Below, in pieces: positions 6,285 through 62,220 of a stretch of DNA of 64,000 nucleotides. This DNA is from Thuidium tamariscinum (Eukaryota; Streptophyta; Bryopsida; Hypnales; Thuidiaceae). Within the stretch, counting starts at the first letter, position 1; each line of letters begins with the position of its first letter. The position numbers were made by a program, and so were the translations under genes. The DNA lies in assembly GCA_947034885.2 (NCBI GenBank), contig OX344754.2:23516501-23580500 (forward strand), given 5' to 3'. The notes under the pieces are model-generated. The model saw only the letters and a program-made list of their open reading frames with translations, made no database searches and had not been told where the DNA came from.

Positions 6285-8820
6285 TAAAGAGTGGTTAGTT
6301 TGGTGGGATGTTAGATATTTGATAGGAAAATTTCAATCAAAAATTGCTTGTATTTATGAAAGAAGCTTGCAAGGTATATAAATACACTAAATCAATTTTA
6401 TATGGAAATGGATTTGTTTTTGAATTTGATCGTATCACTTATCATAGGTAATAAGTAGATATAGATAGGTGAGATATTTGATTGGCTTGAACCTTCTTCT
6501 TTATTTTGAGGCCTTAAATTCATGTAACTACTTACTTTATTAGCATGGAGTGTAGATAACCTATATGTTTGTTAATTTATATAATTTGTTTTTCTATCAT
6601 AGAAACTATGATAGAACTCATTTTCTAACTCTAAATTTGATATATAGGATTGGAGTTAAGACAACATTATAAAAAATTGGATGGAAAACAAGTGATATAT
6701 GACTTTTAATTTGTGATTTACATATTCTGAAGAGAATGAATGCTACTCTCAAATTTCTTGCTTAAAGAGCCAACTTTGCACATCTTTCAACATCTTTCAA
6801 CAAATTTTTGCTCAAAGTCAACATTTGGTTGTGATATCTTATACAAGTTTTATTTAAATTTAAATTAAACCATATTAGTCTTTCAACTAGTGACTAATAT
6901 GTAGAAATTTTCACCAATGTATATTGCATATATATAAGGTAATTCAAATCTATCTAAAGCTTGAGACTATAAAATGTTATATGTAGAAGTATTTTAGTGT
7001 GTGGATTATAGATAGGCTTTTCTGACAACTAAATGTTTAAGTTTGAAGTATGTAATATAATCATAATGAAGATGCTATGATCTTAGGAGATCCAATGATG
7101 ATCAAAGTAGAAGTTGGGTTATATTGTGTGAGGAAAAAAATTGGTAAGAATATTGTCTATTGCTTATAATTCAGCTAAGATGCTATAGTGTTTGGAAATT
7201 CAATAGTGATAAAAACATATTTTTGGGATATTAAGCATCAAAATAGAAACTTGAAAAAACATAATAGTTGTGGTTTAGTTGTGTTTTTTAATTTGGTCCT
7301 TTTACTCAATTGGTGGTTTAATACTTGTGGATTGCTAGGCCTTGTCAATGTGTGTCATATCTAATGAACAAATCATTGGTGGGTGAAAAGAAAGAACCAA
7401 TTATTTGTAAGATTAGGGAATTCCATCAAACAAAGGACTTAGTCACAGGTTTTTTTAAAAGCAATTAAATGCCCAGTTTCATCCCTCCAAAATAGGTAGC
7501 TTCAAGCCTATAGAAAAACATTAGTAAAAATGTGTAAAAAAATGTCAAACTATAATCATGGCAATACATTGTTAACCCCAGAATGCTTCCAAAACCTCAT
7601 TTCATATGTTGTACAAAGCTAATATATACAAAAATTGCATACAAAAATTACATATATAGAGTTGTATATTCAAAATTCCCTCCTTCAATAAATCCCTCCA
7701 AATTAAGGAGATGAACAACTTAAATTTTTTGAAAAGGAGGGCTACATAACCATTTGTCCACCCCCCCCCCCCCCAACCCTAGATTTAATAGAAAGATGAC
7801 TTTGATTGAAAAGATGTGGTTCCATCTCCTCTTCTATTCATTTTCCTTTTTTACCTTTCAAAGATACAATGATTCCATTCACTACACCATCATCCTGTCT
7901 TATCACCCATTATATTGAGACTTTCTTAATTCTTAAAGGTTTTTGAATATGTTTTCACCAAAAATCATTAGAAAAAATTTGTATTTGCTTCAACATACTC
8001 TACTTGATGTGTTTGTTGAGGCAAACACAAAATCTGCGTTGAAAAATGCAAAAAAATGCACACTTTGTGTTTGCCTCAATAAACTCATCAAATAGAGTTT
8101 GCTGAGGCAAGCAAAAATTTCTTCTAGTAAAAGCTCAAAAATTGCCATTTCTAGTACAAGGACTAAATTTTAGAAGGAATACATTTTTGAACACTTTTAA
8201 CTCTAAGATCTTATAGTATGCTAGTTTGAAAAGATGTAGAAAAAATTTCAAAATTTTCTTTGGAATTTTCCACTTTAGAGATTGTAAGATATTAACGTTT
8301 GAATCATTTGACAAAAATCTTTTCTTGGACTTAAAAATAATTGTGCATTTGTACTTCTCAAGGTCACATTTTCATGAAAAAATGTCCTAATCATTAGTGC
8401 TTCTTTAGATTTATTCTTCAAGGCAAGTTGGTTACATGCTTGAAAATTTTCAAATTATTTGGAATTCCACAACATATTGAAAAAATATAGTAAGTAGAAA
8501 GAAGTAGAAAATGATTCAAAATACTAATTAAAAAATACCAATTCAATTGCAATTTAGTTAGGGAATTGAAAAATACAAACTCTAATGGTTACAATGTTGT
8601 ACTAAACAATCTACATCCTATAATTTAATTTTTTTATAAATATAAAAAATTGAGTTAAATAAAGACTTCAAATCTTATTTTAGAATAGAAAATTCATAAT
8701 TGCTTGCAAACTAAAACTCCTCGTAACTTTCATCTCATTAATTAAAATAGAATATTTTAAAGCTTTCTACCTATATATAAATCTTGAAAACCAATTTCAA
8801 TTTTTTTACTTTTAATTTCT

Positions 8821-9387
8821 AAAAGTTTGAGGCACCAAATTTTGGTGTTGACAAAACTTTGAAGTTAAATAAAACCTAACCAATTTTTTTCTTAAAATAA
8901 TTTATATTTTTTTAAAGATATTTTTTGGAAGTTTAGTTTTTGTATAAAAACAAGTTTTGAAAATGATTGATTATGATTTTTCTATTAAAGATTTTATGCA
9001 AGGAGGTCCATTGCAATCTTGACTTTATAGTGTTGAGGGCTCTTAAAAATGAGCCTCAAATATTCTAAATCTTCAAGAAATTCAATCACAATAGAAAATT
9101 CATTTCAAAAAATTGTAGAGTAGATTTTGAGAATCCATAATTTATGCATGTTAGGCCTTTTTTAATAACCTAATGATCAAACATTATAATCTTTCAATCA
9201 ATAAGTCATATTGTTGTGTTTTTCTTTTCTTATGTGATCTCTAATATGTCTAGTTTGAATTTGCACAATTATAATTCAAATAAAATTGATGCAATTTATC
9301 AAAATATTGGATTTTTTCTCAATGTAGAACAAATTCTTACAAGCTCAAAAAAAGCCTTGGGTCCCACCTTAGGCATATAAGGCTTAA
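8821..9387 (+). mobile_element. TTAA family B copy (5' end unclear)
   Basis: About 500 bp is shared with 9640-10260, beginning GGCACCAAATTTTGGTG and ending GGCATATAAGGCTTAA. The left boundary is not clean. No ORF of note. Confidence 0.5.
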
Positions 9388-9495
9388 CAAAAGAATTTTT
9401 CTATGCTATCAAAGATACCTATAGATCAATGAAAACTATATATCATACAATGACTTCTTTACCACGTTGTTAAAAGTTATGAAAATTGTTGGGCC

Positions 9496-10260
9496 GTAAC
9501 CCTTAAATGCCTAAGTTAACAAAATCTAGTGTTTGCAAAACTTTGAAGTTAAATAAAACCTAATTAAATTGGTATTTTTAGTAGTTTATATTTTTAGAAA
9601 CTTTTTTTTGAAGTCTAGTTTAAGCATAAAAAAATCAATCTTGAAGCACCAAATTTTGGTGCTGACAAAACTTTGAAGTTAAATAAAACCTAACCAATTT
9701 TTTTTTAAATAATTTATCTTTTAGAGAGTTTTTTTGGAAGTTTATTTTTTGCATTAAAACAAGTTTTGAAAATGATTGATTATGATTTTTTCGTTCAAGA
9801 TTTTGTGCAAGGGTGTACATTGCAATCTTGACTTTTTGTAGTGTTAAGGCTAGGGTTTTTGGAAATGAGCCTCAAATACACTAGATCTTGGAGAAAAAAT
9901 CACAATAGAAATTCATTTCGAAAAACTATAGAGTAGATATTGAAAAGCCATAAATTGATTGGACTTACACATGTTAGGCTCTTTAATCTCATATTTTTTT
10001 GATGACCAACTTTCTAGATTTGACATGTGCAAAGAGGATTGAAAGACTTCAAGTCACTTTTGCAATTTCAACACCATCACAATCAAACATTATAATCTTT
10101 CAATCCATACGTGATATTGTTATATTTTCTTTTCCTAAGTGATCTCTAAGGAATTTGTATAGTTACATGTAAAAAAAAAACTCATTAAAATGTTGGCTTT
10201 TTGTTCAATTTAGATCAAATTTCTAGAAGCTCAAAAAAGCTTTGGACATTTAAAGGTTAA
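9496..10260 (+). mobile_element. TTAA family B element, nested insertion
   Basis: 765 bp. Left end GTAACCCTTAAATGCC (TTAA decayed to GTAA); right end GGACATTTAAAGGTTAA. The termini are inverted repeats (CCCTTAAATGCC / GGACATTTAAAGG). Flanks GTTGGGCC and AGCTACTCCT are contiguous in the paralogous sequence near 60930, apart from a TTGA there, so the unoccupied site can be read. Non-coding. Confidence 0.65.
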
Positions 10261-10540
10261 AGCTACTCCTTTGGTACATGTTGTGTAAAAATATCAAAGA
10301 AAAATAATTAAAAATTTCATTTGTAGTGAGTTGCCGAAAATCACTATATTGCCAAAAAAATGTTGTTTGGTACTTTAGCAGTTAATTAAAACCTCGCAAT
10401 TATTCATCCTCGGTATTAGGGGTGGAAAAGGGAGACCTTCTACAATACTTTGACTTCCAATGAGTATATTTGGCTTATTCAAAATAGATGATGTTATTCA
10501 ATATCAAAATGCATGATTTCCATGGCTACTAGTCCATCCT

Positions 10541-11468
10541 TTAACCCCTAAAGGACCAAGGCCTTTTTTCTATCAAAAACCTCTCAAAACTGCCATTTCT
10601 GTTGCATTCACCCAAGAAAACAAATTTTTTTCTCTTAAGAATCTAACCGTAGGATCTTGTACTTAACTTGATTGAAATCAGGTGGTAAAAATTTCATGAA
10701 GTTTGACCGTACAGATTGGAAGATATGAGCATTCAAAGTTGAAAATGCAAGTTTTTTTGAACTGTGGTTTGCAATTTCAGATGACTTTGACTGGCATTTG
10801 TAAAAAAAAAATGCACTACAGACTTTGAATTTATAATTTTTTATGTTAAAAAATTGAGTTGAGAGTCTAGGAAAAAATTTTACACAAAAAACACTTGATT
10901 TTCATTCTTTAAAAAATTGTTAAGTAGATGTAGGTCCAAGATTGAAAGAAAAACTAAATGGTTAATAACTCTAAGATGGGATTGAAATACAATAATCCCA
11001 TTGGTGAGATTGTTCTAGCAAGTAAACATAACCTTGTCCAACAATTTTTTTTGAAAAATTGTGAAAATTGCATTAAAAAATGAATCCTATAAGTTATTTT
11101 TTCAAGAAATTATTTAGATTGCCCGAAAAACAAGATTGTCCATAACTTTCTCATTATAAGTCCAAATAGAATGAATCAAAGCTTCACATGTAGGCAAAAA
11201 TATATTATTTTAGAAAAGAAATTAAAAAAATTAAATTTCACCTTTTTGCAAGAAAAAAATTCTGCCCGCCGAATGAAAATTTGGACTTTTTGTGGTATAA
11301 CTTTTGCTCCCAGTCACCAATTGGAATAAAAATTACATTCCCATGAAGCTAATCAGTTTTCCTATCTTATGAGAAAGTTTCAAAAAGATTCATTAAGAAT
11401 TGAGGTCTACGGAACCTGCTCGAACTCCAAATTGTCCCCCGAGGGGACAACGGTCCTTTAGGGGTTAA
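10541..11468 (+). mobile_element. piggyBac-like TTAA non-autonomous element, family A
   Basis: 928 bp including a TTAA at each end. Termini CCCCTAAAGGACC and GGTCCTTTAGGGG are perfect 13-bp inverted repeats. The interior is AT-rich with no long ORF and shares several blocks with the other family A copies. TTAA target duplication plus CCC...GGG ends is the hallmark of the piggyBac superfamily; the assignment rests on these features only, as no transposase is present. Confidence 0.8.
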
Positions 11469-12129: not shown

Positions 12130-13418
12130 TTAACCCCTCAAGGCCCGTGGCAAAAACATATTCAAAAACATCATAGCCTTTGAAGCCTCATAGATCTAAA
12201 TGTCATTAAGCTACACAAATCTCAACCGTACAATCTTGTAGTAGACATGTTTGTAGATGACATGTACAAAATTTGGAGTCATTTGACCGCATAGATTGCA
12301 AAATTATAATCATAAGAGGATTTTTCAGGGCTTCAGGAGACCGTTTTAGCCCTGTTCCCTTGTTTGCGAACGCGTCAGATAAAATAATAAAAAAATAATA
12401 ATAAAAAAATAAAAAAATAAAATTTTAATATTAAAATATTATTAAAATATTTAAATAATAATAATTTTTTTTCCAAATAATAATATTAAAATATTAATTA
12501 AATATGATTATCTGATGTGGCAGCCTCTTGGCCACATCAGATCGCCTCAGTGGCAGCGTTTAGAGAGTTCCCATGGCCTGATAACTCACAGTCTTCCAGA
12601 GTAGCTAAAAATCCTCTTATGGTTTTAGTGCTGAAAATGGATGTTGAAATTTTCCCAAAAACACATTTGGAGGTGAAATTTGATTTCTAAACCTACTCAA
12701 ATGAAAAGACTTTACACTACAAAGTGATTCAAAACTAGTATACAAACACATTGGTGAAAAAAAAATTCACTCAATTGACTCATTGTGTCTACAAATCAGC
12801 TTTGAAATGTCAAAAATTAGCAAGAAAAACTACATAAATTACATCCAAGGCTGAACCTCCGTCTACTAGAACACTTCTCAATCACTCATAACTTCTTGGA
12901 TCGACACGAAACTTTAAGCACACAAACTAGACTAGTATGTGCAATGTTTCCAATAAATTTTTATTGAAAATGGACTTTGCATGAAGAAGAAACAAGCCGT
13001 CAAAGTTTACTCTATTCTAAAAATGGTAGGGTTTTGAACTTTGAATTGCTCCCAAACATCAAAACAACTTGAATTGCCACGAAAATTTTTCCACACGAAA
13101 TAGACTTCAAGGGAAACAAAGCCCAACAAATTTTATTGAAAATGATAATTTGATGAAAGAGAAACAAGCCCCCAAAGTTGCAGCCCTAAAATACAGTTTC
13201 TGAACTCAAATTGAACCTGCAAACTTTTATTGGCTGCAAAAAAATCATCACTTTTTGGATCGATTTGAAAATTTTACCACACAAAGTAGAAGACAATGCG
13301 CAACTTTTACAACAATTTTTATTGAATTTGGACATCACATGCAAAAGTTATAGCACTTTGAATTTGACTAAAAACTTTGAGCGGCGCTATTTGCGCCCCT
13401 TGGACATTGAGGGGTTAA
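12130..13418 (+). mobile_element. TTAA family A-related element with nested MITE
   Basis: Flanked by TTAA (12130-12133 and 13415-13418) with ends TTAACCCCTCAA and TTGAGGGGTTAA. Removing the nested MITE at 12313-12619 leaves ~982 bp, close to family A length. The sequence before the MITE (TTTGACCGCATAGATTGC) matches an internal family A block at 10704-10720. Confidence 0.6.
12313..12619. mobile_element. MITE family C copy nested in a TTAA element
   Basis: 307 bp with perfect 13-bp terminal inverted repeats TAAGAGGATTTTT / AAAAATCCTCTTA. Internal GCTTCAGGAGACCG and GTTCCC motifs are shared in inverted order with the copy at 44292. The middle is an A/T-only tract. Confidence 0.65.
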
Positions 13419-21495: not shown

Positions 21496-22044
21496 ATGAA
21501 CGTTTACTTCGGCATTCCTAGTCTTTGTTTTTTTTATCATTTTCACATTGATATCATTATCTCGTTGTGAATGCAACTTCTACAATTTTTGTAGAACCAG
21601 CTTGAACATGGTAATTGTACTCTACCAATTTGTGGAACTTACCGGAGGTGGTTAGAGGAGTAGTTTATTTCAGTATCATTGGTAGGTTGTCAAGCCTTAC
21701 TTGGAGGCGCGTCCGTCAAATTTAGGTGCCAGATGGGCGGGTGTTTGAGGTTCCTGGAGTACCTTGGATTCCCAATTGTAATTATAGAATTATTGGTATG
21801 GCAATTCATGTAGTTGTCGTTCATTGTTTGGTCTCATTTTCTTTCGTTCTATTTTTAGAAGCCATGTAATAGACAGTTGTTTTGGATGTTTGTGGTTGTG
21901 AATGCTTTTGGGCGTTGGAACCTGAGGAGAGTGGTTGAGAGTTGGCTTATTTGGAGATCGTAAATGTATCTGTTTCTGTGTTACCTTTTGTTTGGAAAAT
22001 CTGATTCGGTGGGGTTCGTGCGTCCTTCACTCTTTTGACGCTCT
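21496..22044 (+). other. 3' flank of right PDH copy
   Basis: Begins at the outer edge of the inverted repeat. T-rich, with no open frame of note; likely the 3' UTR and downstream region of the right copy. It shows no clear similarity to the left copy's 3' flank. Confidence 0.5.
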
Positions 22045-22099
22045 GCTGTGAATGCCAAGAAAGGCAGGGCGGGGGCGCGAAGCCCCGTCACATAAAAGC

Positions 22100-25000
22100 A
22101 AAAACAGATTACATTAAAGAATCGGGAAGATAAAACTTCCAAGCATAAGCTCCAGGTGACAGAAGACGGGGCCCATAAGGCCTCAAACCGCTTCTTCACA
22201 GACTGAAGTTTATCTCTATTCCTAATCCTAGTGCTAAAGTCTTGCTTAATCGCCATCCTTGCATGAATGACGGAGGTCCACGCAGCTTGAATAACCCACT
22301 TCGTGCTGAAGTCCAGGGCGCAATACTTCGCATTGCACCGTTCAATCTAGATATGCCACATAACGAAAGACCTGGGTAAGTCCCAAGGCTGAAGGTCGTA
22401 CACGTATTTATCAAGTTTGAAGGAGCTTTATCAAGTTTGAAGGAGCTGCTCCTGCTGCTCCTCCCTAAGAGAGTGTCCTGAAAGCTCCTGATTCTTGGAA
22501 TGTCCCAAGCCATACCCAATCTGTCAACCCTCCCCCACAACTCTTTGGCGAATTTGCATTCCTAAAATAAGTGTGCAGCGGTTTCCATTTGATGTCTGCA
22601 GCTCGGACAGCTGTGTGTAGCCGTCGGGACTCTCCACGATAGCCACTCTCCCGTCACAATTCCCCAGTTCAGAGTTTGCCATAGTAACATAGCTGGTTTC
22701 CTAGGTCTCGATGCGTGCCACATTAGTTTGAACGTATTTCTTCTCTGCTCCTAATTCAATTCCTGTCTAATGAACTCGTGCATCCCAGTAGATGTCTCCT
22801 CCTTTCCTTGCAACCCAACCGTATATCCACGTCTGACCGTATACCCGAAGAAAGGGGCTTTACTAATTCTACCTGTCTTTCCCCAGCTCCATTCTCCCGA
22901 ATTCCATGGCAAGTTCCTCAGATAATTGTTTTGGAAATGCCAAAGCGTATCTGGTTTCTCTGGTGGGGTTTGGGGGTTGCAGTCATAAAATGACCTCCTG
23001 CTTGCATCCCACTGCACTACTCTAATCTCGAGTTGCTTCTCGTCTGGTGGCTGGTCTTGGCCTTCTCGCCTGTACAGTTGCTCTGAACCAGGTTTTTTTA
23101 TAAAAACTACAGTAATGGGCCTGATTTTGGCTTGTTTTCCTTTTAAGGAAAATCCTATCATCGTTTTCTACCATAATCCATTCCACTTCTCTCTGCTTTG
23201 GGAACGCCCTAGGCTCCTAGAATATGTGTGAGATAGCGATCCTTTTCTTTTCAGCCCTTTTCTCCGTGACTGCTCCCGCTCTGGGCAGTCTGGCCTGGAT
23301 CCCTTCTGCCGTAATCCAATCCCCTACGTTGAGATCCCACAGGTCTCCTACATTACTTATCCCGCTTCTAGCCCAAAGGTATAATCTTTTGTTCGGGCCT
23401 TTGCCCAATGGCACGTTTTCATCCTCCAACAGCAGCAGATTTCCAAATAAGGGCTGTCTAAGGACTTCACTAAGGATTTCGGGATTCTTCTGAATCAGAT
23501 TCCCCCAAATTGCTATAAATGCCTTTATACAAGCAATGACTAACGGAGAGTGATTTTCTCTTTTTAAACCTTTGCTGAATAACAGCCAGGCGTAGGATCT
23601 GTGCCATTTGGCATCGCCTAATGGTCTGCCCTGTTCTATACGATAATGCAGTAGACTCTTTCAGGGTTCTTCTCCCGGGGCTAGACATCTCACCGTCAGT
23701 TTAGCTAACAACGCTTGTGTTTGTAAAAAAGGGTCTATGAGACCCAAGCCTCCTTCCTCCACTGGAAGTATGCACGTGGCCCATCTGACTCGAGAAGCAG
23801 TTCTACCGTTTTCTTTCCCAGTCCACAGGTACTGGGTAATGAGTGAGCGAATTTTATCACACATTCTGGGTGTGATACCGCAGCAGGCTGCTATATACCA
23901 GCAAGTTGCGAGGAAGATCTGATTACAGATCAGTACTCTCCCTACCTGTGACACGGTTTTGGCTGCCCATGAACGGAGCTTTGCCTTAAGTGAGTCCAAT
24001 AATGGGACTGTATTCGTATCCTTAGGAAGGTGAAAACCGACCATAGGACCTAGATATCATACTCCTATTCCTTCGGGGACCCATTTGAGACCCATACCCT
24101 GACCCCACTCGAAGTTCCTTTTGTTTCTAGATGCTCAGATTGTAGCTGTTTTTTTCCAACTGACCCTTGATCCTGAGGCCAAACAAAATAATTATAATAC
24201 TCTAGCTGCCCTGTCCAAGTTACTCTCTGTCCCAATTAGATAAAAGGATGCGTCGTTTGCAAACGACACGTCCTGGACGGTTTTCCCATTCAGGAGTTTG
24301 AATCCCTGAACTCCGTATTTTGGATCCTCGAGCATAAAGCCGAGTGTATCGAAGGCTATTATAAATAGGTACGGTGCGAGGGGGCAGCCCTGGCGCACCG
24401 ACCTTTGCAAGTCAAATTCCTCCCCTAACTCTCTGTTGACAACAACTGACGAGGAAGGATTCTTATACATCAACATCACTCTTTTGATGAAATTCGGATC
24501 AAATCCTCGTTTTTCTAAAACTACACTCATAAAGGGCCACAAGATCCTATCGTATGCTTTTTCAAAATCCAGCAGTAAGAGAACTAGGTCCTGTCCCGAC
24601 TCCTCAGTGTAATGGATGGCTTCTTGGGCTAAGAAAATATTATCTATTATGCAGCGGCCCCTCACGAATCCCGTCTATGATGGTCTGATTATGTCTGGGA
24701 GGATTTTCTAGATTCTCTTCGCCAGTATTTTAGCCACTAGTTTGTAAAAAGATGAAAGTAAGGCAATCGGTCTGAAATTTTTAATTAATGTTGCGTCCCC
24801 CCCTTTGGGAATCAGAGCGATGATACCTCTGTTGTGCATTTTTGGAAGGACTCCCGTCTTCAGAACCTCCTTGGTGGCCTCTAGTAGGTCCGCCTCGATC
24901 TTGTCCGAGCAATTTTTGTAGAAGTCCGTCGGGATGCCGTCCGCTTCCGCTACATGTCCCGACGTGAGCTCTTTGATGGCCTCCCTGAGCTCCTGGATCG

Positions 25001-26428
25001 TAACTTCTCCCCTTAGCTCCCTGTTTTGTTCTTCTGTAATGTCCCGGGGGACACTCTTGAGTACTTGTCTATGAGCTGTCCGTACCTCCCGACTGTCCGA
25101 CTGCTCCGTATATAACTGCCTGTAATAGCTGGTCAACGCCTCCGTCTTCTCCCTTTGGTTTGTTAACATCTGTCCCTCCACTCTCAGCTGAGATATCACC
25201 GTTTTTTTAGAGTCTTTGAAGACATTGAAGAATTCCTTCGTGCATCGTTCCCCCTGCCTCATCCATCTAGTTGAAACCCTGTGGTACTGATCGTCTAATT
25301 TCTCCAACGTGATGTTTTGAAGCTCCGTTTTCACTGCGTCCAACTAGCTCCTCGCTCGGGTGTCCCAGGGGCTCTCCTACACTCTGATCTCTGCGTCTTT
25401 ACATGACCTGATCGCCCTGTTCTTTGCGCTAAATTTCCGCACTCTGCGTTCCTTTTGGATTCGTATGGCTTCCTCTCTTGTGCGGCCTTGAGCATCCTCA
25501 AGCCACTGTCCCCATGCAAAATCTCCTTCCGGACGCCCCTGCCCTTTCCAGGCCTTGACTAGTCTCGCCCTGGCCTCCTCCGATTTCAGCGTATGGAGCT
25601 AAAACACCCCCTGTCTTTTTGCGGCTTCCTATGGGGAAAGATCTTAAGTTGCACCGGCGCATGATCTGAGATCTTTGAATGTAGATGCACCGTGATCTTC
25701 CCGCCTTATAGTGCGAGCTCCTTCGAGAGGTATAGTCTGTCTATCCTCGTCTATCTGTGCTGCTTGCCATCCTTGTTATTATCCCATGTGAATCTGAGGT
25801 TTGTGGTTTTGTAAATGTGGTCGGAAGCCCATGAGTCCTCCAGCCTGTAGTAGTTTAGCAGTCTAGTCCATGCGGATTTTTCACATTGGTTGGGAGTCGT
25901 GTACTTCTGGAAGCTTCCCAACTTGTCCTCCTCTGATTCCACCATATTAAAGTCACCTGCTAGAATGTAGTAATCCCTTGGTATATCCTCGTCTACAAGT
26001 TGATTCCACAACTCAATTCTTTCGCCCATTGTGGTTGGGCTGTAAACGTTTATCACCGTGAGCACCTCCCGTGAGTGCGTTTGTAGTGTGATGAACTGAG
26101 GCCTGCCTTCCATCAATAGCGTTTGCTGTTTTACCCTTCCGGCGAGCTGCTTCGATACCAAAATTGTTGTTCCTGCCCTCCATCGAGCTACAGCCCCTAC
26201 GCATTTAATGGCTGGGTTCCAGCTCTAGAGTCCTCCTGAAAATGGTAAACTGTGGCATCTCCGGTTACACTACGCGTCCGAGAGCCAATGTTCCTGTAAG
26301 AGTATAATTCCGGGTTGCTCGTCCATTCTCTCAAAAAGGCACCTGATATGGACTTGTTTCGGAGCACCACGGGTACCAATACTTGCCCCTCGGACATTAA
26401 GTGTGGCAATATTAAGTTGTAAATCCAT
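22100..26428 (-). pseudogene. LINE ORF2: endonuclease, reverse transcriptase, zf-RVT
   Basis: ATG at 26428 opens with IATLNVRG, the start of an APE-type endonuclease; ILLQEHWLSD and LAGDFNMVES follow (~26280 and ~25970). Reverse transcriptase occupies ~25350-24190: IPKGGDATLIKNFRPIALLS, LLLDFEKAYDRI and RQGCPLAPYLF are clear. The catalytic box reads SFANDAS instead of F/Y-A-D-D, so the first Asp is Asn. A zf-RVT motif, CPSC with HLF-stop-EC, lies at ~22590. Stops sit where Trp or Gln is expected (TGG to TAG, CAG to TAG), and frameshifts are present. Confidence 0.85.
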
Positions 26429-41128: not shown

Positions 41129-42059
41129 TTAGACCCATAAGTTTCTTGACTATGTTTACCTCAAAAACAATCAAAAATTGCCATTTCTAATACTAGTGCC
41201 AATTTTTTTTAAACAATATTTTTTGAGATTTGTAACTGTAGTATTTTATGATTAAATTGGTTTGAGAATGTGTGGAAAATTTTATAGAGTTCTCCACCAT
41301 GTAAATTGCAACAGATATTAGCATTTAAATCCTTAAAGATAATTTTTTCACCTTACAAAAAAGGGCAGCTATACTTCAAAAGGTGACAATCATATGAAAA
41401 ATGGTACAAAATAGTAGTTTTTCTTTGGAGTCATTGTTGAGGCCAAGTAGGGTACTTGCCTAAAAAATTTCAAATTATTTGAAATTGTATAATATATAGG
41501 AAATAAATAGTGTAGAAAGAAGTAGCAAAGGATTAAAATACAAAATAGTTGATAATTTATTTATGGAATTGAAAAATGTCAATTCCACTAGTTGTAATGT
41601 TATAATAAATAATTTAAGTTCTATAATTTTATTTTTTCAAAAAATATTGAAAATTAAGTAAAACAAAGGACTTTAAAGTTTATTTTAGAGTAGAAAATCC
41701 ATAATTGCCCGCAAACAAAAATTTCTCATAACTTTTGACTTATTGATCAAAATAGAATGATTCAAAGCTTTACATCTATGCATAAATGAGATAAACCAAT
41801 TCCATATTTAAGTTTTTCAAAAAAGTTTTTTTTTTCCAATTTGCCCAAACTCCCATTTCCAAAATAAAAAAGCATATAAGGCCATAGCTTTTGACTCATA
41901 TTTTCAAATGTCCTAAATATTAGTGCATTTAAAAGATATATATTTCTCATTCCCACCTTCTAATAAAATTTGGGCCCAAAATATAGAAATCTCCGGTCAC
42001 AAATACCTACCTGAAATCATTATGTTGCCAAATTTAGCAAGTTGATCTTTTAGGGTTAA
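41129..42059 (+). mobile_element. TTAA family A element
   Basis: 931 bp. The left end is decayed (TTAGACCCATAAG) and the right end is GATCTTTTAGGGTTAA. Internal blocks match the other copies (GACTATGTTTACC, GCCATTTCTAATAC, the GATATTAG block, and GTTGCCAAATTTAGCAAGTTG). Confidence 0.65.
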
Positions 42060-50711: not shown

Positions 50712-52467
50712 TACTGAACTGCTTATGGTCTATGCACACTTGCAGTTAGTAAAAATTTAGGTGCATTTAGAGGGGGCGTGGTTAGACAGAATGACCCTAT
50801 TGAGCCTCTTTCAGGGGCAAGGATGGAATGCAGGCAAATCAAGCAGCTACTCCGCAGCCCTCTGAGGATCCATCAATTTACTACCAATTGCGGTTTAACC
50901 CCTAAAGTTCTTTGACTATGTTTTCACCAAAAATCCTTCAAAACTGCCATTTCTAACACAAGTACCAAATATTCAAAAAATATTGTTTTTGGACACATAT
51001 AACCATAGGATCTTGTAGAATTCAGGTTTGAAAAGACGAGGAAAAAATTTCAGACATTTTTACCGTGTGGATTACAAGATATTAGTGTTTGAAGTTACAA
51101 AAATCCTTTTTTTATCACTGCAAAAATCCGGGCAGCTACACTTTACAAGCTCACATTTGCATGAAAAAGAGTCCAAAATGGTAGTGCTTCTTTGGATTCA
51201 TTCTCCAAGTCAAGTTGGCTACATGCTCAAAAAATTTCAAATCATTTGGAATTGAACAACATATAGAAAAAAAATAGTAAGTAAAAAGAAGTGGAGAATG
51301 ATTCAAAATACTAAATTGTTAAAAATTTATTTGCGAAATTGAAACTTGCCAATCCCAATGGTTCAAATGTTGTAATAAACAACCTACACCCAAAGTTTTT
51401 ATTTTTTTCCAAAAATATTGAAAATTGAGTAAAATAAAGGACTTCAAAGTTTATTTTAGAGTAGGGAATCTATAACTACCCGCAAACTAAAACTCTTCAT
51501 AACTTTTGACTCATTAGTCCAAATGGAATGGTTCAGAGCTTTCCACGTATATATAAATCTATTAAATCAATTTCAATTTTTTATTTTCTAAAAAAGTGAT
51601 TTTTTCTGATCTGCCCAAACTGCCCGAGTTGAGAAATAAACAACATATCATGCGATAACTTTTTAACCATGCAGTCAAAAGTCACGAAAATTGTTGGGCT
51701 TTAAAGATATTCCTCGTCCACACCTTCTGTTAAAATTTGGTCCCAAAATATGAAAACATCTAGTCACACGTACCTGCCCGAAATAGTTATGTTGCCAAAA
51801 AAGGCATGTTGGTCCTTTAAGGGTTAAATTTGAATTTTCCAACAAAGAATATGAGAATGCTATAGAACCCAAGATTTCCAATAAGAAAATTGAGGCAATG
51901 ATGCACATTTCGTGCCGTGTGTTCATTTCAGCCTCATTTGAGCCTCATAATCAATCTTATGTCAAAATGGGAGAGGAGAGAAACTCTTTATACTAGTGGA
52001 GTAGTGGTGGGTGGAACAAACCATGTGGGATATGTGATTTAGGAGGAAAAAGAGCTCCTCCATTCATGGTTGTGGAAATGCAGGAATTGTGATAAAAATC
52101 AAATTTCAGACCTCATTTAAACATAGTAGACTATACGTTTTCAAAAAACCTCAAACTAATAAAAGTTGGGGAATCAAGTACACTTTTACCTCCAAAAATC
52201 CGTTTGAGATTTCAATACTCCACCTAAAAGTTATGGACAAATTTTAGAGGAGGTGTTCAAAAATGTCCCCAAAAAATGTCCTTTCCACACACACACCTCT
52301 AGAATTTGTCAAGAACTCTTACATGAGGCTTCAAAATCTCAAGTGATGCTTAGAGATAAATGTTAGCTTGCTTCTCCCACTTCTTCTAGTTTGATTTTCT
52401 TTTAAAGAAACTATTATATGATGCCCAAATAAAGTCTAAAATTCAATTTCAAGCACAATTCTTGTGT
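50712..52467 (+). repeat. Left arm of large inverted repeat (with TTAA insertion)
   Basis: About 827 bp of arm sequence plus a 929-bp insertion. It matches the reverse complement of 54676-55509 from GAACTGCTTATGGTC to GCACAATTCTTG, with scattered substitutions. The outer part is relatively GC-rich (GGGGGCGTGGTTAGACAGAA). The pair could be the long terminal inverted repeats of a Mutator- or foldback-like element ~4.8 kb long, or an inverted duplication. Confidence 0.85.
50895..51827 (+). mobile_element. piggyBac-like TTAA element, family A, with known empty site
   Basis: 933 bp including both TTAAs. Ends TTAACCCCTAAAGTTC and GGTCCTTTAAGGGTTAA. The flanks CCAATTGCGG and ATTTGAATTTTCC are contiguous around a single TTAA in the inverted-repeat partner (55318-55321), which shows precise TTAA duplication. 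The interior has no long ORF. Confidence 0.9.
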
Positions 52468-54675
52468 TTTTACTTACATCTCAAATTCTTAAGAACTTTA
52501 AATTAATATTTCACCATTATTGAAACAACATGACAAATACAAAGTAGACACTTAAGGTTATCTCAGTAATGTCACAAGTTGTGTTGAATCAATATTGTTA
52601 ATCAAAGGTATTGTGTCAATAATTTGAATATGGGATGTAGGAATATTGAATCCACTATTATTCAAAGGTATTGTTTCTACATTTTTAGTATGGTGTTGTA
52701 GAATATTGAATCAACTATTACTCAAAGGTATTGTTTCACATTTTCAATATGGTAGTGTATAATATTGAATCTATAATTATTTATGGTTGAATTCTTGAAA
52801 ATCATCTTCTACAAGGGTTTCTCAAGACTTATAAAAAAAAGTAGTAACCTCATTTTGTGCTTGTAAGGGCTTGTTCTATTTTAATTGATTCATGCTCACA
52901 AGTTGAAATGTTGAAATGTTGAAATGTTAATACAAGAATGTTGTCAAATTTTAATTCTTTTGCAATAAAATTGCTTTCAAAATTGTGACAGAGAGTGCTT
53001 TTGGGATTTGAGTGAGGGAATAATATCCTTTTACAATTCATACCTTTCAATTGATGTTGAATGTCTACATCAAAACAACATTTGGATTTTTGAAATGTTG
53101 GTGGATATTTTATGCCAATTGTTCATCCCTTATGTATTGCAAGCACTTGATGATAGATTAATGATGATAAAAGAAACTTTTTAATATCCAAAATTCCAAT
53201 TACTTGAGAATACAAAAGGAGACTATTTTCCTCTCTCAAGCTAATTAGATTGGATTTGAATATTGTAGTGTGATGCAAATATTGATTAATTTATTTACTA
53301 GGTTTGTATGAGTAGAGTATTGTACACACAATAACACTTTTTGTTTAGTAGGATGTCAAAGCATGTTGGAGCTCTTATCACATAGAGGGTATCTTACAAG
53401 AAATGGAACTTCTTATGAGAAGGTATGAAATGTGTATTAATTTCAAATTTAAGTGTCTATTGATGATATGATGTTAAAACAATTTAACTTTTGTTATACA
53501 TTTAACCATTAGGAAAACATCCTAAAATATTCAATCGTTATTTCAAATAACATTAGATTAGTTTTTAGTTGTGAAAACATCTTTGAAAAAGAGCAATAAT
53601 GTACCAAATGTTGAAACAACAATGAAAGAAGGGGGAAGTAAAATTAGATGAATGGCTTCATTTTCTATAAACAAGATTGAGAAGTGTTGAATATGATACA
53701 ATGTTAGTAGTGGAGTATTATCAATTTAGACCCTACCTACATGTGCTATTAATAATACATAACATTTGAGTTATTTGTAAAGTACACTAAAACAGGGTTT
53801 AAACCTATGAGTTTGGTGAAAAAGCTGGTTGAGTTAAAAAAGTCAAAATAAAAGTGGGTATGAAACTTATTTTTCCATCAAAATGGTGCCTAAAAAAGTT
53901 TGGTCCCCACTTTTGAAGTTGTATGACACAAGTATCTTGCAAAAAAGTTTGACGCTTCAACTATAGTTGCCTTTTCAACTTCAAAAAAAGTCATGCTCAA
54001 AGTGGGGGGGACTTTACAAATAACTCAATTATACAATTTTTTTGACATTCTTACTTTGGTTGATGTTCAAATTTATGATTAGAAAATATTCTTATCAAGC
54101 TTCTAATATCTATAATGATTTGTATTTGTCAAATTGATTAAAAAACACACAACTTTCAAGTATCTGATAAGTACAATTTTTATTTCATTCTTTGAATGAA
54201 AGTTTGTTGTGATTGACAAAACTTATGCATTACATACACACATATTTCATATATATATATATATAAGAAATATTTACAATAGAGAGTTGAGAAGAAAAGC
54301 ATCACTACTTAGATTCTCATAAAGTAACTACATGTATATATGATTGAATATGCAATTGCACATTGTTTGTATAAAGAAACTACCAAACTCTTGTAGAATT
54401 TCGGTGGAAGTTAGTGGAGTATTCTAAAATCTCCAAAAATGCATTTTCTTTTACATAACATATGAATAAATTATAAATTTTCACAATGCTACAAAATTAG
54501 TATTCCTACAACAATATTGTACAAATTAGGTAGGAATTTGTAAAGACTATCACCTTATGAAAAGGATTACAATAGGGTTCAATTACTCAAATAGAAATTC
54601 TACACCTCTAAGATTGTACAATTTTCAATACTTTTCAATTTTATTCATAAAAAATGAAGTTGCTAATGGTTAAGC
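52468..54675. other. Spacer between large inverted-repeat arms
   Basis: AT-rich; no transposase or other gene recognised. Contains a 60-bp tandem repeat (listed) and a short AT microsatellite near 54250. Confidence 0.55.
52586..52780 (+). repeat. 60-bp tandem repeat, ~3 copies
   Basis: CAAAGGTATTGT recurs at 52603, 52663 and 52723, each followed by a variable stretch and GAATATTGAATC. Confidence 0.85.
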
Positions 54676-55509
54676 GGAAACGCAAGAATTGTGCTTGAAA
54701 TTGAATTTTAGACTTTATTTGGGCATCATATAATAGTTTCTTTAAAAGAAAATCAAACTAGAAGAAGTGGGAGAAGCAAGCTAACATTTATCTCTAAGCA
54801 TCACTTGAGATTTTGAAGCCTCATGTAAGAGTTCTTGACAAATTCTAGAGGTGTGTGTGGAAGGGACATTTTTTGGGGACATTTTTGAACACCTCCTCTA
54901 AAATTTGTCCATAACTTTTAGGTGGAGTATTGAAATCTCAAACGGATTTTTGGAGGTAAAAGTTTACTTTATTCCCCAACTTTTACTAGTTTGAGGTTTT
55001 TTGAAAAAGTATAGTCTACTATGTTTAAATGAGGTCTGAAATTTGACTTTTATCACAATTCCTGCATTTCCACAACCATGAATGGAGGAGCTCTTTTTTC
55101 TCCTAAATCACATATCCCACATGGTTTGTTCCATCCACCACTACTCCACTAGTATAAAGAGTTTCTCTCCTCTCCCATTTTGACATAAGATTGATTGTGA
55201 GGCTCAAATGAGGCTGAAATGAACACACGGCACGAAATGTGTATTATTGCCTCAATTTCCTTATTGGAAATCTTGGGTTCTATAGCATTCTCATATTCTT
55301 TGTTGGAAAAATCAAATTTAAACTGCAATTGGTAGTAAATTGATGGGTCCTCAGAGGGCTGCGGAGCAGCCTCTTGATCTGCCCGCTTTCCATCCCTGCC
55401 CCCGAAAGAGGCTCAATAGGGTGATTCTGTCTAACCACGCCCCCTGTAAATGCACCTAAATTTTTACTAACTGCAAGTGTGCACAGACCATAAGCAGTTC
55501 AGCTTCAGT
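54676..55509 (-). repeat. Right arm of large inverted repeat
   Basis: Reverse-complement partner of 50712-52467 without the TTAA insertion. It lies just downstream of the HAD gene's 3' end. Confidence 0.85.
55318..55321 (-). other. Unoccupied TTAA target site
   Basis: Single TTAA in the arm corresponding to the two TTAAs that flank 50895-51827 in the other arm. Confidence 0.9.
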
Positions 55510-55658: not shown

Positions 55659-56672
55659 TCAACAACCGAGTTGGGTAGCGAGGTCTGCAAGATCATCAGC
55701 CGTATAATCCACAGGCACAGACAGGACGGTATCGTCTCCCTGAGTTTTGGGGCGAGACACATGAGCAGTGGCAATCCCAGGGCACGCAGCCAACGCGCCT
55801 GCAATGTCATCGGAATGAGCTGCAACAAACAAAGTTTCTTCCACCGAAAACCCCAACCCAACAACGGCATCACGATACACAGCTGCCTTGGGCTTGTAGT
55901 CGTGGGAGTATTCGCCGCCGAAGATGGCGTCCCACACAATTCCATTGCGACGTGCGAGATCCACCATGATGCGCACATGACCATTCGAAACCGGCGCTAC
56001 CAGGTGGCGTTCACGAATCCGCTTCAGAGCTTCAGGAACCTCCGGCCACGCATCCAGTTGATGCCAAGCCTGCAACACCCAATGGCTGATTACAACTTCA
56101 CGAGGCTAAACCTCCACAATTTCGGATGAATCGGGACACATTCGAACACCTTCTGGCAAATTAGGGCAAATTCGGACAGATTTTGACTAATTGAAGGAGA
56201 AATTGAGGTAGATTAGAGAAATTTTGGGAAGGAAATTTTAATTTCGTGGAACTGGAACTGACCAAAGACTGTACCCCGCGCTACCCATGTGAGAAAAAAT
56301 CCTGCACAAATTCGCCTACTGAAGTGACCTCCACCGAATTCTCGAAACCAGTTCAAGTCAGGGAAAAGCAAGAACCCCTGCCTGCACGAGCTTCTCCTTG
56401 GTTGATGCGTCCGTGACAACTGCGAAGTCCGCCAGCACATCCTCCATAGTCTCGGCTTCCAGTGTGTCAATGTTAACCCATGCGCGCTTGCCGTCGCGCA
56501 CAGGTTTCATTGACGACTGAATGCGCGCATTCCAGTCGGTAGCAAACGCATCGACATCGAGGGCGTGCTTAGCCAGTAGTCGCGAAACCTCGCGAGTGAC
56601 TCCGGAGTGGTGATCCACCAGGGTCCCAAACGTGTCGAATATAACAGCGCCGAACTTCTTCTGAGACGCCAT
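55659..56672 (-). CDS. HAD-family type II haloacid-dehalogenase-like protein
   Basis: Two exons, 56672-56376 and 56069-55659, give 235 residues, the usual size for type II (S)-2-haloacid dehalogenases. The start is the ATG of MASQKKFG. HAD motifs: I, VIFDTFGT with nucleophile Asp13 and Thr17; II, PVSNGH with Ser127; III, YKPK with Lys158; IV, AAHSDD at 182-187. The donor is uncertain: GGG|GTTCTT at 56376, or GC-AG CAG|GCAGGG at 56382, both in frame (two residues fewer for the latter). Type II members cleave carbon-halogen bonds via an aspartyl ester, but motif IV has Ala-His where characterised dehalogenases have Ser-Asn, so the substrate is unknown. No targeting peptide is seen; probably cytosolic. 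Exons are GC-rich against AT-rich flanks. Confidence 0.85.
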
Positions 56673-56950: not shown

Positions 56951-58965
56951 TATAATACAAGGATTCGAGTTGCTATTTGTAGTAGTTTATATTTTTTTTA
57001 AGTTCTTTTTGAAGTCTACTTTTGGTGTCAAATGTCAAAAATCTAATATGAAAAATGAATGATAGTGATTTTTCTATTTAAGATTTTGTGCAAGGGTACC
57101 CATTGCAATCTTGAATTTCTATAGTATTGAGAGTTCTTGAAAACGAGCCTCAAATACACTAAATCTTGAAGGAAAAATCACATTCAAAATTCATTTACAA
57201 AAATTGTAGAGTAGATTTTGAAAAGCCATAAATTGATTGGAGTTATGCACGTAAGGCCCTTTAACCTCATACTTTTTTGGTCACCAACTTTTCAGATTTG
57301 AATGGGGGAAATAAGATAGAAAGACTTTACATCACTTTTGTAGTTTTATACCCTCATGTTCAAACATTACAATCTTTCACTCCGATCCATAAGTGATATT
57401 GTTGTATTTTCTTTTCTTGTGCAGTGGGGTACCAATCAAAATGTCGTTTTTGAATTCGCAGTGAGAAAAATTTCAGTATTGCCAACTTTGAAAGCCTCCC
57501 GAGAGCTCAAAAATTGGTATTTTACCACGAAATTTTTACCACAGCATCATCCTTAAGTTAATTATATGTATGCCAAATTTCAAGTCCAAAATATTCACCG
57601 AAAAAAAGTTATTCAAAATCTACCAACATGGGTATTAATGAGAAACATTTCACTACTTTCAACTTTGACACCTTCCTAAGGATTGAGTTCTTTTTCTTTT
57701 TCCATGAAATTTTTGTCATGAAACAATCTCTATGTTTCTAATATGCATAAAAAATTTCAAGGTAAAACTTTTTTTTCTTAAGAAGATATTTGAAATCTCC
57801 CAATAGGTTTAGTTTTGAGAAAATTTTCACAATTGCCAACTTTGACACCCTCCCAAGGGCTGAAAAATTGGTTTTTTACTATGAATTGTTATTTGCGAAG
57901 TCATCTCTATGTTGATAATATGTTCTCCAAATTTCAAATTCAAATGAATTACCAAAAAAAAGATATACAAAATCTCCCAACATGTGTAGTTGTGAGGAGG
58001 AGTTTTTGAGCCCTTAGTATAGTGCTATTTTGTGGAGCAAAGTTTGACATGAATGTAAAAACTCAACCTCACAACTACACATGTTGAGAGATTTTGAATA
58101 TCTTTTTTTGGGTAAGTGTTTTGAACTTGAAATTTGGAATATATATTATCAACATAAATTTGATCTTATTCAGAAAAATTCATGTTAAATAGACAAATTT
58201 TCAGCCCTTGGGAGGGTGTCAAAGTCAGCAATAGTGAAAATTTTCTCACAACTACACATGTTGGGAGATTTTGTATATCTTTTTTTTGGTAATTCATTTG
58301 AATTTGAAATTTGGAGAACATATTATCAACATAGAGATGACTTCGCAAATAACAATTCATAGTAAAAAACCAATTTTTCAGCCCTTGGGAGGGTGTCAAA
58401 GTTGGCAATTGTGAAAATTTTCTCAAAACTAAACCTATTGGGAGATTTCAAATATCTTCTTAAGAAAAAAAAGTTTTACCTTGAAATTTTTTATGCATAT
58501 TAGAAACATAGAGATTGTTTCATGACAAAAATTTCATGGAAAAAGAAAAAGAACTCAATCCTTAGGAAGGTGTCAAAGTTGAAAGTAGTGAAATGTTTCT
58601 CACCACTACCCATGTTGGTATATTTTGAATAACTTTTTTTTGGTGAGTCTTTTGGCCTTGAAATTTGTTGTATATATAATTAACTTAAGGATGATGCTGT
58701 GGTAAAAATTTCGTGGTAAAATACCAATTTTTGAGCTCTCGGGAGGCTTTCAAAGTTGGCAATACTGAAATTTTTCTCACTGTGAATTCAAAAACGACAT
58801 TTTGATTGGTACCCCACTGTATAATCTCTAACATGTTTAGTTTTAATTTGTATGGTTACATTTCAAACAAAATTCTTACAACTTCTCAAAATATTGGCAT
58901 TTTGTTCAATTTAAAGCAAATTCCAAGAAGTTCAAAACATACCTTGGGCATTTACGGGTTATACT
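56951..58965 (+). mobile_element. TTAA family B copy interrupted by a palindrome
   Basis: 57000-57421 follows family B (AGATTTTGTGCAAGGG, ATTGCAATCTTGA, GAGCCTCAAATACACTAAAT) and 58820-58965 supplies its end, TTGGGCATTTACGGGTTAT, a decayed family B terminus. The 1.4-kb palindrome at 57422-58819 sits between. The left end is not sharply defined. Confidence 0.55.
57422..58819. mobile_element. Palindromic (foldback) insertion of 176-bp units
   Basis: Arms 57422-57996 and 58245-58819 (575 bp each, x pairs with 116241-x, high identity, almost no indels), spacer 248 bp. Ends CAGTGGGGTACC / GGTACCCCACTG are perfect inverted repeats. Within the right half the block TGTCAAAGT recurs about every 176 bp (58217, 58394, 58571, 58747), and the left half mirrors it. 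No transposase; no clear target duplication. Confidence 0.8.
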
Positions 58966-60094: not shown

Positions 60095-61048
60095 TTAACC
60101 CCTAAAGGTTTTTGACTATGTTTTCACCAAAACCGCTTCAAAACTGTCATTTTTTAGACAACTATCAAATTTTAAGAAAAAAACATTTTTGGACAAAAGT
60201 AACTGTAGGATCTTTTAGAGTATAATTTTAAAAAGAGGTGGAAAAAATTTCAGCAATTTCCGCCGTGTAGATTGCAAGATATTAGTGTTTGAAGTGACAA
60301 AAATCATTTTTTTACCACTGCGGAAATCCGGGCAGCTGCACTTCACAAGGTTACATTTGTAAGAAAAAAAGTTCAAATTGGTGGTTACTCTCTGGATTCA
60401 TTCTTAAAGGAAAGTTGGCTATATGCAGAAAAAAATTCAAATCATTTGGAGTTGTAAAACATAGAGGAAAAAAATAACAAGTACAAAGAAGTAGAAAATG
60501 AGCCAAAACACTAAATTGTACACAATTTATTTATGGAATTGAAAATTTTTGATCCCAATGGTTAAAATGTTGTAATAAACAATCTTCACCTATTGCAATT
60601 ATTTTTATCCAAAAATATTAAAAATTGAATTAAATAAAGGATTTCAAACTTTTTTTGTAGTGTAGGAATTTTGTAACTAGCCACAAACTACCTCAAACTA
60701 AACCTCCTCATAACTTTTGACTCACTAATCCAAATGGAATGATTCAAAGATTCCTGCATACACAAAATTCTAAATAAAATATTTCAATATTTCATTTTTT
60801 CAAAAAAATATTTTTAAAGAAGTTTTTTTATCTGCTCAGATTGCCCAGAGATCAAAGGAAATCACATATCATGTAATAACTTTTTGACTATGTAGTCAAA
60901 TGTTATGAAACTTGTTGGACCTTGAAGCTACTCCTTGGGCGCATGTTGTGTGAAAATTTCAAAGAAAAAGAATAAAAACTCCATTCGTAGTAAGCTGCCC
61001 GAAATCGCTATGTTGTCAAAAAACGCAGTTTGGTCCTTTAGGGGTTAA
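60095..61048 (+). mobile_element. TTAA family A element
   Basis: 954 bp. TTAACCCCTAAAGGTT at the left and GGTCCTTTAGGGGTTAA at the right, flanked by perfect TTAA. Internal blocks are as in the other copies; it gives the uninterrupted version of the site where a family B copy inserted at 9496-10260. Confidence 0.8.
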
Positions 61049-61295: not shown

Positions 61296-62220
61296 TTATC
61301 CTTAAAGGACCAAGGTACATTTTTTTTGTAACATAGAGATTTTGGATAGGTAAGTACAATGGCAAAGTTTCATATTTAGAGCCCAAATTCTAATAGAAGG
61401 TGGGACAAGAAAAAGCATTGACTAAAGGCCCAACAATTTTTGTAACTTTTGACTACATGGTTAAAAAATTATTGCATGATATGTTGATTCTTTTTCAGTT
61501 TGGATTGTTTAAGCAAATTAAAACAAAAATTTAAAAACAAAAACTTGAATTCATTTTCTAGATTCATATATGTGGTAAGCTTTGAATCATTCCATTTTGA
61601 TAAACAAATCAAAAGTTATCAAGATTTTTAGTTTGCAAGTAGTTGTAGATTCTCTACCCAAAAATAAACTTTGAAATCCTTTATTTACCTTATTGTTCAA
61701 TATTTTTGGAAAAAAATTTTAAAAATAGGGTGAAGATTGTTTATTTTAACATTGGAACCATTGGAACTGGCAATTTTCAATTTTATAAATAAATTTGTAA
61801 CAATTTAGTAATTTGAATCATTCTCTATTTCTTTCTACTTACTACTTTTTCCTACATGTTGTACAATTCCAAATGATTTGAAATTTTTCAAGGGGATAGA
61901 AAATTTGCCTTGAAGAATGAATCCAACGAAGGACCAATATTTTGGACAATTTTTCATAAAAATGTGAGCTTGTGAAGTGCAATGGCCTATTTTTTTGTAG
62001 GACTAAAAAAACGAATTTGATCAATTCAAAAGCTAATATCTTGTAATCCACGTGGGAGAATTTTTGAAATTTTTTCGCCTTCTTTTTAAACCAACACACT
62101 ACAAGATCCTATATTTAGATGTGTCAAAGATTAAAATTTTCAAATAATTGGTACTTGTATTAGAAATAGTAATTTTATAGCATTTTTGTGAAAAAATAGT
62201 CATAGAACTTTAGGGATTAT
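61296..62220 (-). mobile_element. TTAA family A element, inverted and decayed
   Basis: 925 bp in minus orientation: starts TTATCCTTAAAGGACC and ends CTTTAGGGATTAT, with TTAA decayed to TTAT at both ends. Internal family A blocks appear reverse-complemented, for example GGTACTTGTATTAGAAATAG and CACGTGGGAG near 62050. Confidence 0.65.

Follow-up and report, generated by a model that had tools for sequence, protein, structure and literature searches.

A multi-thousand-copy MITE family, very probably of piggyBac type, in the nuclear genome of the moss Thuidium tamariscinum

The piggyBac group of DNA transposons is known mainly from animals. Its members move by a pathway of hairpin ends with 4-nt TTAA overhangs, followed by joining without repair synthesis. 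Here we describe a 925-bp insert at 50899-51823 in a 64,000-nucleotide stretch of the Thuidium tamariscinum assembly (contig OX344754.2, positions 23,516,501 to 23,580,500, forward strand; "the window" in what follows). With high confidence, we take this insert to be one copy of a multi-thousand-copy, non-autonomous miniature inverted-repeat transposable element (MITE) of the piggyBac superfamily, housed in the moss nuclear genome and presumably mobilised in trans. The mechanism is ordinary; the news is the host lineage, piggyBac being unexpected in a land plant.

With regard to plants, the record is thin. Land-plant transposons were reviewed in 2022 with six terminal-inverted-repeat (TIR) superfamilies, and the word "piggybac" occurs 0 times in that review (PMC9033089). 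The accessible portions of papers that report the group from "plants" do not name land plants (PMC10140906, PMC10813416), and those of another name red algae (PMC12732532). Two repeat tables contain entries, namely 1,230 PiggyBac elements making up 0.00% of a fern genome (PMC6890710) and one element of 75 bp in a feather-grass genome (PMC8319324); both are traces from annotation pipelines. A moss piggyBac community in print was not found in the accessible open-licence literature, Repbase and subscription papers being outside that scope. An earlier reading of this DNA from the sequence alone (the sequence-only reading) had called piggyBac "sparse or undescribed in land plants", and this literature agrees, the fern and grass traces included. 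Titles cited in PMC12732532 report animal-derived piggyBac in use for marker excision in plants.

The insert, copy A hereafter, breaks the left arm of a 4.8-kb inverted repeat, whose right arm, compared as its reverse complement, has the identical flanking context around a single TTAA. The features concerned are the following.

50714..52476, plus strand: host inverted repeat, left arm, broken by copy A (self-comparison)
50895..50898, no strand: left TTAA target-site duplication (sequence read)
50899..51823, plus strand: copy A, 925-bp non-coding MITE, very probably of piggyBac type, with termini CCCCTAAAGTTC and, reverse-complemented, CCCTTAAAGGACC (consensus, termini)
51824..51827, no strand: right TTAA target-site duplication (sequence read)
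54671..55502, minus strand: host inverted repeat, right arm, without insert (self-comparison)
55318..55321, no strand: single TTAA, the empty site in the other arm (sequence read, paralogous arms)

The 4-bp TTAA duplication is exact on both sides. The arms agree at 172 of 185 bases on one side of the insert and at 97-98% on the other, and overall they are 93-98% alike. The sequence-only reading had described a 929-bp insert between two TTAAs, with the same flanks around the single TTAA at 55318-55321; the insert, its TTAAs and the flanks are real, but the length is 925 bp plus one TTAA, and the "13-bp terminus" of that reading resolves to TTAA plus 9 bp. The termini CCCCTAAAG / CCCTTAAAG have the CC(C/T) start, with a pyrimidine at the 5' end and a purine at the 3' end. 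In the family consensus the inverted repeat is perfect over its first 9 bases, after which the ends diverge (the criterion being ~12-19 bp).

Is the right arm an empty site or the scar of a deletion, the outcome that would have told against the earlier reading? Eight loci of the host repeat were cut out, comprising the two arms of the window (L087 and L088) and six arms elsewhere (L089-L094). The right arm of the window (L088) and all six paralogous arms align through the junction without the insert, with TTAA kept in L091 and L092, one base off in L090 and L093, and diverged in L089 and L094; L089 also has an unrelated break ~40 bp further in. Because the six paralogous arms join in the same way, the right arm, with its clean single TTAA, is an ordinary empty site rather than a deletion scar. 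The host repeat (50714-55502) is in turn a long-inverted-repeat element present in high copy, its first-look candidates numbering 2,363 genome-wide; among the 40 that were scored, many are inverted pairs 2-5 kb apart.

One might still suppose that the right arm once held the insert, which would then be older than the divergence of the arms, and lost it by an excision that restored the TTAA. We consider this quite unlikely. An arm-to-arm likeness of 93-98% would suit it, and so would the seamless excision known for piggyBac (PMC10140906 cites a paper whose title speaks of precise excision), but the arms elsewhere show that the empty state is the common one, and the event would in any case be of piggyBac type.

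Copy A is far from alone. The assembly (363,211,507 bp, 19 contigs) was searched with the insert as query, which gave 9,455 first-look candidates, 40 of them scored. Among the scored there are 42 matches; two are partial, and the other 40, with copy A counted, run near full length at 93-100%. The copies are spread over ten contigs, C1-C10, of 24-54 Mb each. Leaving copy A aside, 39 near-full-length places remain, of which we fetched 20, and matching 4-bp duplications are present in every one (19 TTAA, 1 CTAA). The consensus built from 21 copies, A among them, is 925 bp long; the copies lie 1.5-3.8% from it (copy A 2.6%), and its longest stop-free stretch is 91 aa, so that the family is non-coding. 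The closest fetched copy to A, on C3, is 99.8% identical and differs in its flanks. As for abundance, the genome has 4,780 exact matches to the 17-mer TTAACCCCTAAAGGACC (2,453 + 2,327), against 0 + 0 for the reversed control; as either end of a copy, or both, may bear it, copies with an intact end should number at least ~2,390. The consistency of the flanks and the abundance of the terminus were the genome-wide checks proposed from the sequence alone, and the multi-copy family there mentioned as a condition is now found, in the thousands.

The copy with CTAA on both sides (L024, G000:C6:20442524-20444051) is consistent with occasional non-TTAA targeting, CTAA being reported as a variant duplication (PMC10813416).

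A family that codes for nothing needs a transposase from elsewhere, and the genome has candidates in number. It contains at least 116 domains of the piggyBac transposase profile PF13843 (DDE_Tnp_1_7); 116 of 659 first-look candidates were scored, and all 116 lie over the curated cut-off, the best at 5.7e-80. The profile found 0 matches in 14 control genomes, which is a weak control since the named ones are prokaryotes. Thirty loci were cut out and 26 of them could be read; the 17 distinct proteins obtained fall as low as ~30% in pairwise local identity and represent several transposase lineages. The C-terminal CxxC..CxxC pattern, looked for as the sign of a cysteine-rich domain, is seen in 22 of the 26 readable loci, 11 of the 22 being near-identical copies. 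One protein, P0001 (from L041), matches piggyBat (chain 9c0f) at 3e-27 and the piggyBac of Trichoplusia ni (6x67) at 1e-22, and its segments MTVDES, TTDNFF and GVDTADQ, the three catalytic Asp regions, align with their counterparts. D644, D749, D865 and D868 are invariant in nine moss transposases; we take the T. ni triad to be D268/D346/D447. A PF13843 transposase with the DDD triad is, in short, present in autonomous moss elements. The sequence-only reading had asked for such a transposase with matching ends: the domains exist, but none was read with the exact CCCCTAAAGGACC end.

Eleven of these loci (L040-L050) form one family, with a common terminus, CCCTGAAACGCC, preceded by TTAA and set in 11 different flanks; it reads TTAA and then CCCTGAAACGCCGGGC, and its 28-mer has exactly 11 exact matches in the genome. 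Nine copies, L041 and eight others, are identical over 3,984 bp, and L040 and L043 are 99.975% and 99.925% identical to L041. The far end, CCCCTAAACGCCGGC followed by TTAA, was read in 3 of the 11 copies, two of which differ by at least one base outside the 3,984 bp; the copy on C1 measures 5,088 bp between its TTAAs. The transposase frame is 1,023 aa long. Nine identical copies at different sites argue strongly for recent movement of this family. One member, L042, sits exactly at the TTAA that borders a MITE end. As a direct parent of the MITE the family is improbable, its ends being different from the MITE ends, and the pattern TTAAC[CT][CT][CT]TAAAG was found nowhere within the first 30 transposase loci.

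Another question is which of the transposase-bearing elements stand closest to the MITE. Compared with 53 stretches of transposase loci, the MITE consensus found two flanking MITE copies (L042, L061) and nine other matches in eight stretches. The left end of the MITE is collinear from its tip with the 3' tails of six loci (L069, L082, L073, L075, L076 and L077), the register from their own tips holding within ~2 bases, and in L069 MITE base 1 lies at the tip. L077 has a near-identical partner in L074; the stretches read do not reach the tip in L074 and L038. The best of these matches has an E-value of 3e-21, while the controls (200 dinucleotide shuffles and the reversed sequence) gave 8 matches at E<=1e-3, the best 9e-6. 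For the weaker matches, register is a stronger argument than the E-value, which is only modestly above noise. There is also a second match in L075, outside its tip, that looks like another fragment.

Of the transposase loci read, the closest to the end of the insert is an element on C9, whose 3' tip is CCCCTAAAGGTTTT followed by TTAA; the 14 bases of this tip recur at the left tip of copy B, a relative of the insert in the window. The homology runs through the subterminal region, and at about base 230 an internal block, CCGGGCAGCTGCACTT, is common to the MITE and the C9 element. A candidate 5' end of this element at C9:16267296, with CCCCTAAAGTTC after CCAA, was rejected, as L099 and L100 share sequence upstream.

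How, then, would the MITE move? A piggyBac transposase encoded elsewhere in the genome would bind its short terminal repeats and subterminal blocks such as CCGGGCAGCTGCACTT, excise it at TTAA and, following the standard piggyBac pathway, insert it at another TTAA. The likeliest helpers would be relatives of the L074/L077 and L051/L069/L073/L075/L076/L082 transposase lineages, and a helper lineage among the piggyBac relatives of these loci is likely on sequence grounds. The MITE itself probably derives from an element of this sort, through internal deletion or through capture of its ends, and was then amplified. Binding, excision and reintegration, as we infer them, would amount to ordinary non-autonomous cut-and-paste in trans, as in other piggyBac MITEs.

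Several points weigh against this account. The terminal rule "CCYT" given for piggyBac in PMC10175614 is followed by the right end of copy A and by the left end of the autonomous element, but the CCCCT end does not strictly satisfy it. The cysteine pattern is lacking in 4 of the 26 readable frames (L037, L038, L057, L058). Among the matches of the MITE to the tails, the weaker ones (~1e-6) come near the best control (9e-6), and the subterminal homology between MITE and transposase loci is only 61-69%; for both reasons the named helper lineages would be relatives, not proven partners, of the MITE. A TTAA-flanked CCCCTAAAGGACC tip is present in 0 of 50 transposase loci (the 30 already mentioned, plus 20 looked at on one side only), a count in which not every stretch reaches its tips. 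Similarly, neither the 5' end of the C9 element, the closest autonomous relative, nor an exact right-end partner of the MITE was found at the loci read.

Could the insert belong to another TTAA-using superfamily, Kolobok or Sola3, with the piggyBac transposases as unrelated bystanders? The sequence-only reading had held the pair of filled and empty sites, with the CCCC...GGG termini, to be diagnostic; one such pair alone does not separate piggyBac from these two. Sola3 likewise uses TTAA. Kolobok makes TTAA duplications too (PMC9587614), and Sola1 is on record in the moss Physcomitrella (PMC9033089). What decides for piggyBac is the CC..GG termini together with the transposases. Kolobok ends are described as 5'-RR..YY-3' (PMC9587614), and on these termini Kolobok is ruled out. 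Moreover, homology in register links the left end of the MITE with the tails of piggyBac-transposase loci, and these loci have their own TTAA and CCC(C/T)-type ends; no search for Kolobok or Sola transposases was made. We judge such an origin to be very unlikely. The assignment to piggyBac-type transposition made from the sequence alone is supported by the TTAA duplications, the empty sites, the CC..GG termini and the PF13843 transposases of the genome, and neither of the outcomes that it had named as a refutation was seen.

As for the host, LEAFY (PF01698) gives one strong match, on contig C4, plus five weaker ones. The DNA-binding exon of the C4 gene shares 100 of 106 residues with chain 4bhk ("FLORICAULA/LEAFY homolog 1" in the database) and 75 of 103 with 2vy1 ("protein LEAFY"), which we take to come from the moss Physcomitrium and from Arabidopsis, respectively. 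C4 bears LEAFY together with transposase and MITE loci. Contig C19 has a complete rbcL frame beside other plastid-type sequence. The identity of the LEAFY exon and this plastid-type rbcL contig point to a moss as the host. That the piggyBac signal is an assembly artefact or animal contamination, an idea whose appeal is that piggyBac is known mainly from animals, has a negligible probability in view of the MITE copies on ten large contigs, LEAFY on the same contig as transposase and MITE loci, a gene with a transketolase pyrimidine-binding domain within the window, and L042 inserted exactly at the TTAA of a MITE.

The five weaker SAM_LFY matches (G000:C9:9824638, C1:35710485, C8:9874880, C1:42521344, C2:21540582) are over the family cut-off and are candidate paralogues or fragments. 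RuBisCO large-subunit matches are also seen on a nuclear contig (G000:C1:38347545-38348475, one with a stop), probably from an insertion of plastid DNA.

Within the 64 kb, self-comparison and a search for the terminus revealed six further relatives of copy A.

7926..10385, plus strand: copy F, outer TTAAs included, four collinear pieces matching A (7926-7974, 8129-8815, 9383-9499, 10257-10385) with other DNA between
10545..11464, plus strand: copy E, 920 bp, flanked by TTAA left and right, each end CCCCTAAAGGACC, identity to A ~60% over 670 bp
12134..13414, plus strand: element G, 1,281 bp between two TTAAs, with termini CCCCTCAAGGCCC / CCCCTCAATGTCC that are related but not the same
41135..42055, plus strand: copy D, ~921 bp, decayed at its left flank and tip, with TTAA on the right, 73% identical to A
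60099..61044, plus strand: copy B, 946 bp between TTAAs at 60095-60098 and 61045-61048, with CCCCTAAAGGTTTT as its left end, ~77% identical to A
61300..62216, minus strand: copy C, ~917 bp, TTAT (plus strand) at both flanks, ends slightly decayed, 78% identical to A

Like copy A, four of these (B, E, F and G) thus have TTAA on both sides; copy C, with its TTAT, may be another non-TTAA insertion or may have decayed. The terminal inverted repeat of copy E matches at 13 of 14 bases, and the body of element G is largely different from that of copy A. Because the identities of B, C, D and E to A range so widely, the window holds several subfamilies of differing age. With up to 3 mismatches, it has 9 matches to the 17-mer TTAACCCCTAAAGGACC, where 0.20 are expected, and 45 to the single-end motif TTAACCCCTAAAG, where 24.9 are expected (largest shuffle 38); the latter counts are weak alone, and the 17-mer is far cleaner. 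Transposase remnants were sought in the MITE and the window with a profile of the 17 distinct moss transposases, and none was found (best E 2.6).

The remainder of the window offers some observations of its own. The segment with the transketolase pyrimidine-binding domain, which we take to resemble plastid pyruvate dehydrogenase E1 beta, occurs twice (15305-17518 and 19271-21495), the two copies forming an inverted repeat at 98% identity around a 1.75-kb spacer. At 22000-26300 (minus strand) lies a LINE-like element in several open pieces; a reverse-transcriptase domain (PF00078, 1.2e-13) is seen in one of them. Adjoining the right arm is a haloacid-dehalogenase-like hydrolase frame (55659-56105, minus strand; PF00702, 3.9e-9), and at 57422-58819 lies an inverted repeat with 575-bp arms at 98% and ~180-bp units repeated inside. 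The window region had no match in the plasmid collection, the Rfam scan gave nothing at the gathering threshold, and the tRNA search gave nothing.

Taken together, several transposase lineages, a recently moved autonomous family and thousands of MITEs lead us to favour, with some reserve, a moss whose native piggyBac community is large, old and still mobile. If true, this community would stand as a seventh TIR superfamily beside the six listed for land plants, and the moss would be a source of a piggyBac transposase native to plants, an enzyme of a type prized for excising seamlessly. The picture of the group would change with a land plant whose genome carries at least 116 transposase domains, MITEs in the thousands and autonomous copies that are identical, and a question would arise: did piggyBac reach the moss by vertical descent, or did it arrive horizontally?

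How does the moss family compare with the systems already described? Sola is a DNA transposon known from mosses (Sola1 in Physcomitrella; PMC9033089). Sola3 shares the use of TTAA; no Sola transposase is linked to the moss MITE, none having been searched for. Kolobok shares the TTAA duplications, and its 5'-RR..YY-3' termini (PMC9587614) are the opposite of the CC..GG seen here. The insect piggyBac-type MITEs in iMITEdb (PMC5199201) are short, grouped with PiggyBac and flanked by TTAA duplications; these are insect families, whereas the moss element has 925 bp and a perfect terminal repeat of only 9 bp. Turning to the transposases, piggyBat of Myotis lucifugus (9c0f) is the best-scoring solved relative of P0001 and has the same catalytic regions, but its host is an animal and the match is confined to ~365 residues in two stretches. 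Finally, piggyBac of T. ni (IFP2; 6x67) has in common with the moss elements the TTAA target, the C-rich terminal start and a DDD transposase. The differences are the frame of the 11-copy family, which with its long N-terminal extension has 1,023 aa against 594, other moss frames varying in length; the moss termini, CCCTGAAACG / CCCCTAAACG; and the host, a land plant.

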